Shown here piece by piece: positions 2,437 through 18,292 of a DNA stretch of 44,035 bases. A model generated the notes under the pieces. It saw nothing but the letters and a program-made list of their open reading frames with translations, did no database searches and had not been told where the DNA came from. The position numbers and the translations under genes were made by a program. The DNA lies in the IMG/VR virus record IMGVR_UViG_3300022745_000061, positions 1-44,035 of that record; one strand, 5' to 3'. This stretch comes from a virus. Position 1 is the first letter of the stretch, and every line of letters starts with the position of its first letter.

Positions 2437-3018
2437 ATGGACATTCAGCAGGCACACAACGGATCGGACAACATCGTCGTCCCTGAGGCCAGATACCGTG
2501 GGGCCACGCAGGACGACGTGATCGGCACGATCGTCAAGTGGATCAACAGCTACAAGTACTTCGGGTATAACCCGATCAAGGAAGTCGCTGTTCGCACTGT
2601 CAGTGACCACGGCGAGACCAAGGAGTGGACATACCGTCAGCTTGGCACCGCCCCGCTCCCGTTCGCTCCTTACATCCAGAAGCTGATCGACGGGACCGAC
2701 ACCGCAGAGGTCGCCGCGCTCAAGGCTGAGATCGAGCAGCTCAAGCAGGCGAACGCCACCATCGCCGCCCAGACCCGAAACACCTGTGAGCAGGAGTTCG
2801 TGGAGAAGGTGATGGAGTACCACGAGGGCTGCGCCGAAGGCAAGGCCAGCTTCGTGGAGTGGTGCGGTTACGAGGTTCCCACCAGGGAGATCCGAGTGAC
2901 GCTGTACTGCGAGGTTCCCGTGACCACCGACGTGTACTCGGTCGAGAACGATGTTCGGTACGCTGTTGAGATCCGCGGGGAGTACACGTACGGTTGCATC
3001 GACGCCGAGGAGTACTGA
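2437..3018 (+). CDS. Protein with central coiled coil, unknown function
   Basis: A 193-aa protein with an N-terminal globular part, a central coiled coil (about 88-110, Ala/Glu/Leu/Lys heptads) and a strand-rich C-terminal part (about 145-190) ending in acidic residues. The ATG follows TAAGGAG. A strong hairpin lies just after the stop, closing this transcription unit. No family is recognised. Confidence 0.7.
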   Translation: MDIQQAHNGSDNIVVPEARYRGATQDDVIGTIVKWINSYKYFGYNPIKEVAVRTVSDHGETKEWTYRQLGTAPLPFAPYIQKLIDGTDTAEVAALKAEIEQLKQANATIAAQTRNTCEQEFVEKVMEYHEGCAEGKASFVEWCGYEVPTREIRVTLYCEVPVTTDVYSVENDVRYAVEIRGEYTYGCIDAEEY

Positions 3019-3027
3019 GGCTGATAG

Positions 3028-3057
3028 GCGGGAGGGCACAACGGGGTGCCCTCCCGC
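3028..3057 (+). terminator. Strong hairpin, probable terminator
   Basis: A perfect 12-bp GC-rich stem (3028-3039 with 3046-3057) with a 6-base loop, directly after the 193-aa gene. The following bases (ATTCATTC) are only weakly T-rich, so termination may be partial. It could also stabilise mRNA ends. Confidence 0.6.
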
Positions 3058-3081
3058 ATTCATTCGAGTAAGGGAGTAAGC

Positions 3082-3990
3082 GTGCTTACCTACGATGATG
3101 TCGACCAGCAGCTTGGCAAGCGTGACTCACGCAAGCTGCGGAACAACACCTACCTGAAGCGCAAGGCCAACTGCATCGCTATCGAGTACCACGGGTCCGC
3201 TATCGTAGCGTGGTACCCGAACGGCGAGACCAATTTTTCGGTGTGGGGATTCAACACCGTGACCACTCGTGAGCGCATCAACACCTACTTGCCGTACGGT
3301 GTGAGCCTCAGCAGCTACCACGACAACGTGGTGCTGTGGGAGGATGGCAATTGCTCCTGGCTGCCTTCGTCCTACCAGAACATCCTCGTCTACAAGGGTG
3401 TGGTGTACACCGATCGCCGCCCGTTCGAGCTGTTGTACGAGCACGTGAAGACGGAGCGCAACGAGCGCCGCCGTCAGTTGCGCCTGCAGCGGAAGGAAGA
3501 GCAGGCGTGGAATGACTACCACCTGTTCCGTTCGGTGTTTGCGTTCGCCCTTTCACCTGGTGATTCGGCGTGGGCGAAGGCGATCACGTTCACGAAGGAT
3601 TGGCTCGACTACCACCACTGCGCCAGCCTGAAGGAAGTAAACGTTACTCACGCTATTGGCAGCTCGCGACCAATGCGCCAGCTCTGGAAGTGGGTGCGAA
3701 GCGCACCTGCAGAGAACGACGAAGTTGGTTACGCCAACTGGAACAGTCACACGTATTACTACGGTTGGAACGAGTGCCCCGATTGGGACGCTTCTCCTAC
3801 CTGCGGTTGCGGGTTCCATGCGTCACCGACCCCGCACGCTGGGTTGATGTACCGCCATGACGGCAACGTCTTGCTCCAGGTGTGGGCGTTTGAGGACGAG
3901 ATCGTTCCGATCAACGTCGCGAGCCGCAACTACGAGCAGGTCGACAAGTGCAAGGTTCCCCGCTTCTACGTTACAGGAGTGTACAACTGA
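3082..3990 (+). CDS. Phage hypothetical protein with C-terminal GFHAS-type motif
   Basis: A 302-aa protein. The first half is strand-rich and aromatic, followed by a very basic helix (about 118-138, Arg/Glu-rich). The C-terminal segment (about 238-302) has CGCGFHASPT, then a hydrophobic strand pattern, resembling a small uncharacterised phage domain in which a Gly-Phe-His-Ala-Ser motif precedes beta strands. The GTG start is chosen for its AAGGGAG site; an in-frame GTG at 3046 lies inside the upstream hairpin. The next ATG overlaps its stop. Confidence 0.7.
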   Translation: MLTYDDVDQQLGKRDSRKLRNNTYLKRKANCIAIEYHGSAIVAWYPNGETNFSVWGFNTVTTRERINTYLPYGVSLSSYHDNVVLWEDGNCSWLPSSYQNILVYKGVVYTDRRPFELLYEHVKTERNERRRQLRLQRKEEQAWNDYHLFRSVFAFALSPGDSAWAKAITFTKDWLDYHHCASLKEVNVTHAIGSSRPMRQLWKWVRSAPAENDEVGYANWNSHTYYYGWNECPDWDASPTCGCGFHASPTPHAGLMYRHDGNVLLQVWAFEDEIVPINVASRNYEQVDKCKVPRFYVTGVYN

Positions 3991-13741: not shown

Positions 13742-14663
13742 GCAGTTCCACGCCCTCTTCGAGGGGCGCGTCGATGTCTGCGGCACCGAAGAGGGTGGAT
13801 GCGATCGCAGCATGGCGATCGACCATTGGGGTGGCCACTTCTTGGGCGGCACGCCGATGGGCGTGTACCCGATGGTTCCGTTGCAGCATCCCGATGAGCC
13901 GACGGAGTGGTTGGTCAAGTGGGGTTGTGTCGACCTTGACGTGAAGCGTGAAGGCAAGCGTCGGTACGACTACGACACCGAAGACGAGGCGCACCTAGCG
14001 GCTCGCAATCTGCACAGCGTCCTGCAGCACGCAGGAGTGACCTCTTGGACTGAGGTCACACGATCCCACGGTCGGCATGTGTGGGTATTCATGGACGATT
14101 GGGTGCCCGCCGCGACCATGCGGCGGGCACTGCTCGTCGCTTGTGACGTAGCGGACGTACCGCCCACCGAGGTCAACCCGAAGTCCGAAGGCTTCGATGA
14201 CCCCGAGACGCTGGGCAACTATGTGCGCTTGCCGTACCCATATGGAATCGATGACAACCGTTACATGTTGACGGTCAAGTCGGAAGTGAGGATCGCTCGT
14301 GATGCCTTCATTATCCGAGCCTACGAAACCCGCAACTCTGCAGGCGAGCTGGAAGCTCTTGCCGAGCTGTGGACTCCTCCCCCGACTCGTGTGCATGTGG
14401 CGGAGTACGGACAGTACGACGGCAAGCTGAACGACGAGATCACGCCCTACATCAGGGCCGTGCTCAAGCAAGGTCCGATCAACGGGGAGGACCGCAGCGG
14501 ATGGCTGTATTGGCTAGCGGGCAAGTGTCGTGAGGAGAACCTTACGCCAGAGCTGGCCTACGCCGTGGTGCACGAAGCGGACACGGTGTACACTCACAAG
14601 TACGTCATCCGCAAAGATGGCGATCGTCGCATTATGGAGCTGATCGAGAAGCAGTATGCCTGA
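13722..14663 (+). CDS. Archaeo-eukaryotic-type primase (Prim-Pol)
   Basis: A 313-aa protein with the signature of AEP primases: the hDhD metal site VDLD (D71, D73), the SHGRH nucleotide-binding motif (about 114-118, sxH type) and LGNYVRLP (about 164-171) of phage prim-pol proteins. The C-terminal part (about 245-313) is helical, like a PriCT-type domain. It would make primers and may extend DNA, which matters because no DNA polymerase is visible. The GTG start is chosen from GAGGAGG 9 bases upstream. It overlaps the helicase gene by 20 bases, so the two probably act as one replisome unit. Confidence 0.8.
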   Translation: MSKTLFEQFHALFEGRVDVCGTEEGGCDRSMAIDHWGGHFLGGTPMGVYPMVPLQHPDEPTEWLVKWGCVDLDVKREGKRRYDYDTEDEAHLAARNLHSVLQHAGVTSWTEVTRSHGRHVWVFMDDWVPAATMRRALLVACDVADVPPTEVNPKSEGFDDPETLGNYVRLPYPYGIDDNRYMLTVKSEVRIARDAFIIRAYETRNSAGELEALAELWTPPPTRVHVAEYGQYDGKLNDEITPYIRAVLKQGPINGEDRSGWLYWLAGKCREENLTPELAYAVVHEADTVYTHKYVIRKDGDRRIMELIEKQYA

Positions 14664-15278: not shown

Positions 15279-15643
15279 TGCCGTACATCAAGCAAGACCG
15301 ACGTGAGCATCTCGACGGGTTGGACGCACCCGACTGCGAAACCGCAGGCGAGCTGAACTACGTGTTCACGCAAACGATGTTCGACTGTTACCCAGACGTG
15401 AACCTGGCGTCGGCGTTCATCTCTGACGAGATCAACAACTACCGCCTCGCTCATGGCGAGTCGTACCAGACGTACAACGACATCATGGGGGCGCTGCACT
15501 GCGCCACCTACGAGCGCATCCGTCGCACAGGCGATCACACCTTCGACAGCGTGATTGCTCACCTGATGGCTGACCTGTACGTGGACTGGATTGCTCCGTA
15601 CGAGGACAAGAAGATCACCGAGAACGGCGATGTCTACGCATGA
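15278..15643 (+). CDS. DUF6899-like protein
   Basis: A 121-aa acidic helical protein beginning MPYIKQDRREHLD with AGELNYVFT soon after, as in the DUF6899-type proteins of phages. The ATG overlaps the preceding TAA. Its last codons (DVYA) overlap the start of the HNH gene. The role is unknown. Confidence 0.65.
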   Translation: MPYIKQDRREHLDGLDAPDCETAGELNYVFTQTMFDCYPDVNLASAFISDEINNYRLAHGESYQTYNDIMGALHCATYERIRRTGDHTFDSVIAHLMADLYVDWIAPYEDKKITENGDVYA

Positions 15644-16080
15644 AGCGTCGTCCTTGCAGCAAGTGCGGACGCAACCGAGCGGAACGCTTTTTCAGCGGGC
15701 CGCGAGGGCGGGTCTGTTCGTCCTGTCGGCGGAAGCGAGTCGCCTCCACTGGCAAGGACGCAAGGCTGCAAGCCACCTACGGGATTACGCTGGAAGAGTG
15801 GGAAGCCATCTTGGATTCCCAGGGTGGGGTATGCGGAATCTGCGGTGGTACACGGACGATGTACGACACGGATCACGATCATCAAGTGGAGAAGTTGCTT
15901 CGTTCACAAGGCATATCGGACTTGGAAGCAACGCGAATGAGTGTGAGGGGGCTCCTGTGCAAGACCTGCAATCGTCGCCTGCTGCCAGCGGCGAAGGACG
16001 ATCCCGAGAGACTGCAAGCGGCGATACGCTATCTCGAATCGCCGCCAGCCTCAGCGATCATCTTGGATTCCCTGGCGTGA
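15640..16080 (+). CDS. HNH / endonuclease VII-type nuclease 1
   Basis: A 146-aa zinc nuclease. CSKC (6-9) and CSSC (26-29) form an N-terminal zinc ribbon. CGICGG, then DTDHDHQ and RGLLCKTCNRRL, match recombination endonuclease VII, a Holliday-junction and branched-DNA nuclease of the His-Me finger group. Free-standing genes of this type can also act as homing endonucleases. It starts in an ATGA overlap with the DUF6899-like gene and ends in a GTGA overlap with the next. Its end (DSLA) resembles the upstream gene's end (DVYA) only weakly. Confidence 0.85.
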   Translation: MKRRPCSKCGRNRAERFFSGPRGRVCSSCRRKRVASTGKDARLQATYGITLEEWEAILDSQGGVCGICGGTRTMYDTDHDHQVEKLLRSQGISDLEATRMSVRGLLCKTCNRRLLPAAKDDPERLQAAIRYLESPPASAIILDSLA

Positions 16081-16654: not shown

Positions 16655-17021
16655 CCGTGAGCGGCCGATCAACCCGCAGGAGAAAGTGTTCGATGGAGAG
16701 TTCCTCGATGACTACCCAGCCGTCTTCCCACGCCGTCCGTCTACGGCGATGGAAGCGCTTCTTGAGGCCCCGATACACCGCGAGCCTGAACGATCACGAG
16801 AAGACTACGATGTGCTACGAGAGACCTTGGGGGCTGCCATTGACGGTCTGCCTGAGGATGAGCGGACCGTCTTCGAGGGTATCTTCATGGAGCGTGCAAC
16901 CTTTCGCGTTCTTGCGGAACGCTTGGACGTTGGAGTGGCGACGATCGACCGACTGAAGGAACGTGCCCTCGCTCTGCTTCAGGCAGAGCTGGATGGTAAG
17001 GTGGACGAATGGTTGAACTGA
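16644..17021 (+). CDS. Sigma-70 region-4-like protein
   Basis: A 125-aa protein with a disordered N-terminal part (1-55) and a C-terminal domain (about 68-118) reading LPEDERTVFEGIFMERATFRVLAERLDVGVATIDRLKERALALL in short segments typical of sigma region 4: a helix, then the helix-turn-helix that reads a -35 element. Regions 2 and 3 are absent. It could be a co-activator or adaptor binding the RNA polymerase beta flap, as T4 gp33 does, or a sigma-like regulator. It is a candidate reader of the GGAACA elements before the late genes. The GTG start follows CAGGAG. Confidence 0.65.
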   Translation: MPRNRERPINPQEKVFDGEFLDDYPAVFPRRPSTAMEALLEAPIHREPERSREDYDVLRETLGAAIDGLPEDERTVFEGIFMERATFRVLAERLDVGVATIDRLKERALALLQAELDGKVDEWLN

Positions 17022-17218
17022 CACAGGCAGACCTGTACTCGATGGAAGCTCTGTTGGGTAAACTGAACGAGTTCTCGCGTTCTTATGGCGACACCGTGCG
17101 CCCCTCAGGAGCGGCACGGTTCTTTGTAGGTGACGATGCTCTTGAAGTGCAGTGCGAGTACATCGTGACCTCGTCTGATGAGGACCGCACCTGCGGACAC
17201 TGGAGGGTAGTGATTTGA
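17009..17218 (+). CDS. Small protein, unknown function
   Basis: A 69-aa protein overlapping the sigma-like gene by 13 bases. It has an N-terminal helix and a strand-rich second half (ARFFVGDDALEVQCEYIV, HWRVVI). Its TGA overlaps the TTG start of the next gene. No family is recognised. Confidence 0.65.
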   Translation: MVELTQADLYSMEALLGKLNEFSRSYGDTVRPSGAARFFVGDDALEVQCEYIVTSSDEDRTCGHWRVVI

Positions 17219-17682
17219 CCGAAGTGCGCACGACAAGCGCAAGTGGAGGAGCGAAAGGTGTCAAGCCCCAAGAGATCGCTTGGATCGACCCGAAGTCGAT
17301 CCTGGAAGTTGCCGAAGTCGCAGAGATGGGTAAGAGTAAGTACGGAGACCACAACTACCGAGCTGGATACGAGTGGTCGAAGTGTTACAACGCGCTCCAT
17401 CGGCATCTTGCTGCCTTCTGGGGCGGCGAGGATCGTGACCCTGAGAGCGGTCTCCCCCACGTCGCTCATGCGGCTTGGCACTGCCTCGCGCTCCTTACCT
17501 TCATGCGAGAGCACCCCGAGTACGACGACCGCTACAAGCCGATGATGACGCCGTTCACGGAGATCATGAAGTCGGCAAGTGGCAGCATGTTTCCGAACGA
17601 CGCGACCTCGCCGTTTCACAACATTGCTGATCCGCTTCCTCACCTGACCGACGACGACTACCGAAGGGACATGCCAGCTTGA
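17215..17682 (+). CDS. dATP/dGTP diphosphohydrolase-like (MazG-like fold) protein
   Basis: A 155-aa protein with the pattern of phage dATP/dGTP diphosphohydrolase domain proteins (the DUF5664/PF18909 group, from memory): GGAKG at the N terminus, then an AEVAEMGKSKYGDHNYR helix, ALHRHLAAFWGGEDRDPESG and HVAHAAWHCLALLTF. The Glu, Asp and His residues would hold Mg2+. Such enzymes hydrolyse purine dNTPs and change nucleotide pools. The TTG start makes a 4-base overlap. It ends RRDMPA, which the downstream HNH gene repeats at its own end. Confidence 0.75.
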   Translation: MTEVRTTSASGGAKGVKPQEIAWIDPKSILEVAEVAEMGKSKYGDHNYRAGYEWSKCYNALHRHLAAFWGGEDRDPESGLPHVAHAAWHCLALLTFMREHPEYDDRYKPMMTPFTEIMKSASGSMFPNDATSPFHNIADPLPHLTDDDYRRDMPA

Positions 17683-18002
17683 TCTTGGATCGAGCGGCAC
17701 ATGCTCGTGAGTACCGCAAAACGCGAGCTTACGATCATGCCCGTACCTCTCGGCTCAACGAACGTAAGGCATGGTTCAAGGCCCTCAAGGCCAAACTGGC
17801 CTGCGTTGATTGTGGTTACAACGCCCATACAGAGGCGTTGGACTTCGACCACATTGAACCGACCAACAAAACACACAACGTAGCCTCAATGGTTTGCAAC
17901 AACTTCTCAAAAGAGAAGATCCTAGCGGAGATCGCTAAGTGTGAAGTGGTCTGCGCTAACTGCCATCGCGTACGAACCGCTAACAGAAGGATGCCCGCAT
18001 GA
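17679..18002 (+). CDS. HNH endonuclease 2 (probable mobile gene)
   Basis: A 107-aa HNH protein: CVDCG (about 43-47), DFDHIEP (about 56-62) and CEVVCANCHR carry the zinc cysteines and the catalytic His-Asn-His type residues. The TTG start overlaps the upstream gene's TGA, and its own TGA overlaps the next ATG. It ends RRMPA, nearly the same as the upstream gene's RRDMPA, but with different codons for Pro, Ala and the first Arg. This suggests insertion into the 3' end of the upstream gene with replacement of that end. Confidence 0.8.
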   Translation: MILDRAAHAREYRKTRAYDHARTSRLNERKAWFKALKAKLACVDCGYNAHTEALDFDHIEPTNKTHNVASMVCNNFSKEKILAEIAKCEVVCANCHRVRTANRRMPA

Positions 18003-18292
18003 CTGACGAAACCATCGAGATCGTAGACCCTCTCACTGAGTTGCGTAACGCCAACTCCGAGCTGGTCAACCAGATCCACGCCGAGGGCATGGGCCTCGAC
18101 TCGCAGGTTGGTATTCACCTGCGGCTCGACACTCTCATCGACCTGCTGCTGCCGCCTGGCACGCCGTTCCGTCACCTGTGGGAGCTTGAGTCGGAGCGCC
18201 GTTTCAACGGGCTCTTGACTGAGGCGGTCAGCCAGGCCCGTCAGGCCAAGCTGACGCAGGGAGTCGACAAGGTCAAGCTGGAGAGCGTGTGA
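17999..18292 (+). CDS. Protein of unknown function
   Basis: A 97-aa helical protein (about 10-30 and 60-85) with LIDLLLPPGTPFRHLWELE in the middle, a pattern seen in small actinophage proteins of unknown role. The ATG lies in an ATGA overlap with the HNH gene, probably the original overlap with the dATP/dGTP hydrolase-like gene. Its TGA overlaps the next ATG. Confidence 0.65.
   Translation: MTDETIEIVDPLTELRNANSELVNQIHAEGMGLDSQVGIHLRLDTLIDLLLPPGTPFRHLWELESERRFNGLLTEAVSQARQAKLTQGVDKVKLESV

Follow-up and report, generated by a model that had tools for sequence, protein, structure and literature searches.

Genes for HNH and other homing-type endonucleases are well known at phage gene junctions of the kind treated here (PMC10448857, PMC2988022). 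The locus analyzed lies in a 44,035-base virus record, IMGVR_UViG_3300022745_000061, and this whole stretch is referred to as the window. On its plus strand, a helicase, a primase, an endonuclease VII-like gene (15640-16080), a sigma-like gene, a small gene (17009-17218), a hydrolase, an HNH gene and a 97-aa gene follow one another in that order. The hydrolase, directly 3' of the small gene, is dATP/dGTP diphosphohydrolase-like (17215-17682; PF18909, E = 9.2e-33; phrog_801, E = 1.4e-43), the HNH gene encodes a free-standing endonuclease of 107 aa (17679-18002), and the 97-aa gene 3' of it (17999-18292, hereafter the next gene) is of unknown function and has a homologue in viral contig L083.

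The hydrolase reading frame terminates CGA AGG GAC ATG CCA GCT TGA (RRDMPA and stop; CGAAGGGACATGCCAGCTTGA, 17662-17682), and the HNH frame terminates AGA AGG ATG CCC GCA TGA (RRMPA and stop; AGAAGGATGCCCGCATGA, 17985-18002). Three of the five codons common to both ends differ synonymously. The hydrolase and HNH genes overlap by TTGA (17679-17682), the HNH and next genes by ATGA (17999-18002). These ends, their codons and the two overlaps were all present in the sequence as the first-pass annotation had claimed. With a 3-nt gap, 15 of 18 bases agree between the sequences at either end of the HNH gene, and the peptide tails match at 5/5 positions with one gap; the likeness stops at the stop codon, with none beyond it. 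An SD-like GAAGGGA in the hydrolase end, nine bases 5' of the TTG at which the HNH gene starts, may act as the Shine-Dalgarno (SD) sequence of that gene.

The HNH protein carries the motifs CVDC, DFDH and CANCH, in this order, and belongs by profile match to PHROG 3106 and 2255 (E = 3e-26 and 4.6e-25). It was scanned against viral contigs, which gave 80 loci with identities of up to 59% (best segment), and 54 distinct relatives were read through to the stop codon. CxNCHxxR[TS] near the C-terminus was found in every one of these 54 (CANCHRVRT in the window copy), followed by RTxxRR in 19. Five relatives on other viral contigs (L022, L023, L027, L030 and L035) end EKCEVVCANCHRxRTxNRRMV and stop, the ending being coded AACAGAAGAATGGTATAA in four of them; the window protein ends AKCEVVCANCHRVRTANRRMPA and stop, coded AACAGAAGGATGCCCGCATGA. 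No hydrolase was detected in the fetched DNA of these five, and across the 80 fetched HNH loci a hydrolase match was obtained in L017 only, approximately 0.6 kb upstream of the HNH gene. Judged from these endings, NRRM is the C-terminus of the HNH family itself; since relatives without the hydrolase end this way, the RRM of the window tail is family-inherited and no remnant of the hydrolase. In L017 the HNH relative (2932-3303) ends ARRVR and stop; 11 nt at its 3' end are shared with a DNA polymerase III alpha-like gene that starts with GTG, giving another instance of coupling between this family and the gene downstream. In an unrelated contig (L133, 2986-3874), a dATP/dGTP hydrolase-like gene also has an HNH gene farther downstream; this was rejected as a parallel junction, as one small ORF separates the two genes and the joints are unlike those of the window.

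Two viral contigs, L082 and L083, match the window helicase at 61-63%. The order in L083 is helicase, primase, endonuclease VII-like gene, hydrolase and next gene, as in the window, and the HNH gene is absent from the syntenic site. The L083 hydrolase (13880-14224) ends GAC CGT CCA GAA GGA ACT ACC AAT GAG CGA TAA (DRPEGTTNER and stop), and its next gene (14214-14498) starts at the ATG at 14214, within the hydrolase, for an overlap of 11 nt. This next-gene homologue was recovered by tblastn (E = 7e-9, 31%), and L083 is divergent from the window (hydrolase 38%, next gene 29-31%). In L082 the hydrolase ends DDRP and stop, no HNH gene lies near it, and the next gene was not detectable. The HNH gene is thus present at this site in the window and absent from it in L083, and from the vicinity of the hydrolase in L082, both relatives being distant. 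In L175, which is more distant, neither hydrolase nor HNH gene was detected, and a weak profile candidate may be a distant next-gene homologue (hhalign probability 87%). No close relative carrying the next gene was found in viral contigs, genome contigs or phages, the L083 copy and the weak L175 candidate being the only ones. The endonuclease VII-like gene is kept in L082, L083 and L175 at 50-56% and, unlike the HNH gene at 17679, is apparently a core gene of the phage group; a relationship between these two genes was looked for, and weak matches only were obtained.

The sequence CAGAAGGA-N7-ATGA is identical at the HNH/next-gene joint of the window and at the hydrolase/next-gene joint of L083. 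In the window, AGAAGGA sits 7 nt before the ATG of the next gene, within the HNH tail. The CAGAAGGA block would be the SD of the next gene; it reads arginine-arginine in the HNH frame, so that HNH family codons and the downstream SD appear to coincide.

The DNA-level match of the two gene ends is within chance. In first-order Markov shuffles, each 44 kb strand held 0-4 sequences (mean 1.75) that matched the HNH 18-mer as well as the hydrolase end does. When junctions were simulated with an SD and an NTGA overlap imposed, 1.4-2.8% gave an equally good match; with the SD requirement lifted, the figure was 0.2%. Peptide tails with at least 5 identities were found in approximately 0.06% of random phage gene pairs, a figure that homologous tails inflate. 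None of 452 adjacent gene pairs reached this level, though this count takes no account of the constraints common to both ends or of the choice that the reader had in what to compare.

A rival reading, which takes up the first-pass annotation, has the HNH gene inserted in the old hydrolase end, so that RRMPA and the ATGA overlap would be original and RRDMPA a recoded copy. The similar tails with synonymous codon changes, the overlaps at both joints and the rarity of the peptide coincidence are what this reading explains, and it was nevertheless judged highly improbable. The HNH family has NRRM of its own, the likeness ends at the stop codon, and the HNH-less L083 hydrolase ends PEGTTNER. The hydrolase-like protein consists of the PF18909 N-terminal domain and then a variable tail of approximately 49 aa ending YRRDMPA; after the DDR motif, the length and sequence of this tail vary widely among 80 further viral loci and aligned phage homologues, and no MPA ending was seen among the distinct tails listed from those loci or among the aligned homologues. 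A homology search with the tail gave no credible match, the best (E = 6) lying on the strand opposite to an annotated gene. The annotation had predicted that a hydrolase without the HNH gene beside it would directly overlap the next gene and end like the HNH tail: the overlap was borne out in L083, and the ending was not, PEGTTNER without MPA being the outcome named beforehand as contrary, here from a single relative at a large distance. Given NRRM in HNH relatives and PEGTTNER in L083, there is no support for the claim that the HNH gene carries the original end of the hydrolase or a copied tail, and a lineage-specific duplication is unlikely.

A short direct repeat arising at insertion, by target-site duplication or at a microhomology joint, would place the SD and overlap block on both sides of the HNH gene, followed by divergence. 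The 15/18 identity fits this, as does the occurrence of AGAAGA/AGAAGG both in the family tail of HNH genes (AACAGAAGAATG) and in the L083 junction SD; AGAAGGA, which the HNH tail has in common with the old SD, could have served as the microhomology. The repeat finder reported no direct repeat, however, and the strength of the match does not exceed chance, leaving such a repeat improbable. There is likewise a small chance that the HNH gene entered where its NRR codons (AGAAGG) formed a microhomology joint with the SD of the downstream gene; if true, this would be a way for HNH genes to land repeatedly in operon junctions with coupling intact.

The reading we strongly favor is that the HNH gene was acquired at an already coupled hydrolase/next-gene junction and kept its own family tail, with the RRDMPA/RRMPA likeness stemming from SD, overlap and chance. 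Both ends hold an SD-like AAGG, in arginine codons, and a stop-start overlap, which together with a chance MPA would account for the likeness. The hydrolase and the small next gene would have been translationally coupled before the HNH gene arrived. A free-standing HNH gene, of a type exchanged among phages by homing or illegitimate recombination, then probably entered this ancestrally coupled junction, and coupling was kept on both sides. The incoming gene would have retained the family C-terminus CANCHRxRTxNRRM, and its AGA AGG A stretch may now double as the SD of the downstream gene, matching AGAAGGA in the HNH-less relative. Acquisition is the most likely origin because the HNH gene is absent from the L083 syntenic site and has a GC content, approximately 52%, below that of its flanks, which is mostly 57-62%; three distant relatives without it likewise point to insertion rather than loss, and homing is a plausible route. 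Against this stand the rarity of a 5/5 peptide-tail match between adjacent genes (0/452) and the divergence of L083, whose junction need not be the exact ancestral one of the window's own lineage. The insertion that the first-pass annotation proposed is thus retained, in that the HNH gene occupies a junction joined directly in L083 with coupling kept on both sides.

A striking tail repeat can hence come from family-conserved residues together with the constraints of an SD and a stop-start overlap, and the locus offers a clear single example of a free-standing HNH gene seamlessly lodged in a coupled phage operon junction. Such insertion with coupling kept on both sides is routine in phages, and this is an ordinary case. 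Compared with phage free-standing HNH (homing-type) endonucleases of PHROG 3106 and 2255, the window protein has the same HNH and zinc-binding cysteine motifs in approximately 100 aa and the same family C-terminus, CANCHRxRTxNRR, and its gene is likewise a single one between unrelated operon genes and patchy among relatives. There is no qualitative difference; the window gene overlaps both neighbors, and its tail codons appear to supply the downstream SD. As with the nuclease genes at phage genetic-exchange boundaries (PMC10448857), an endonuclease is the sole extra gene at an otherwise shared junction; in the window case, recombination or homing is putative.
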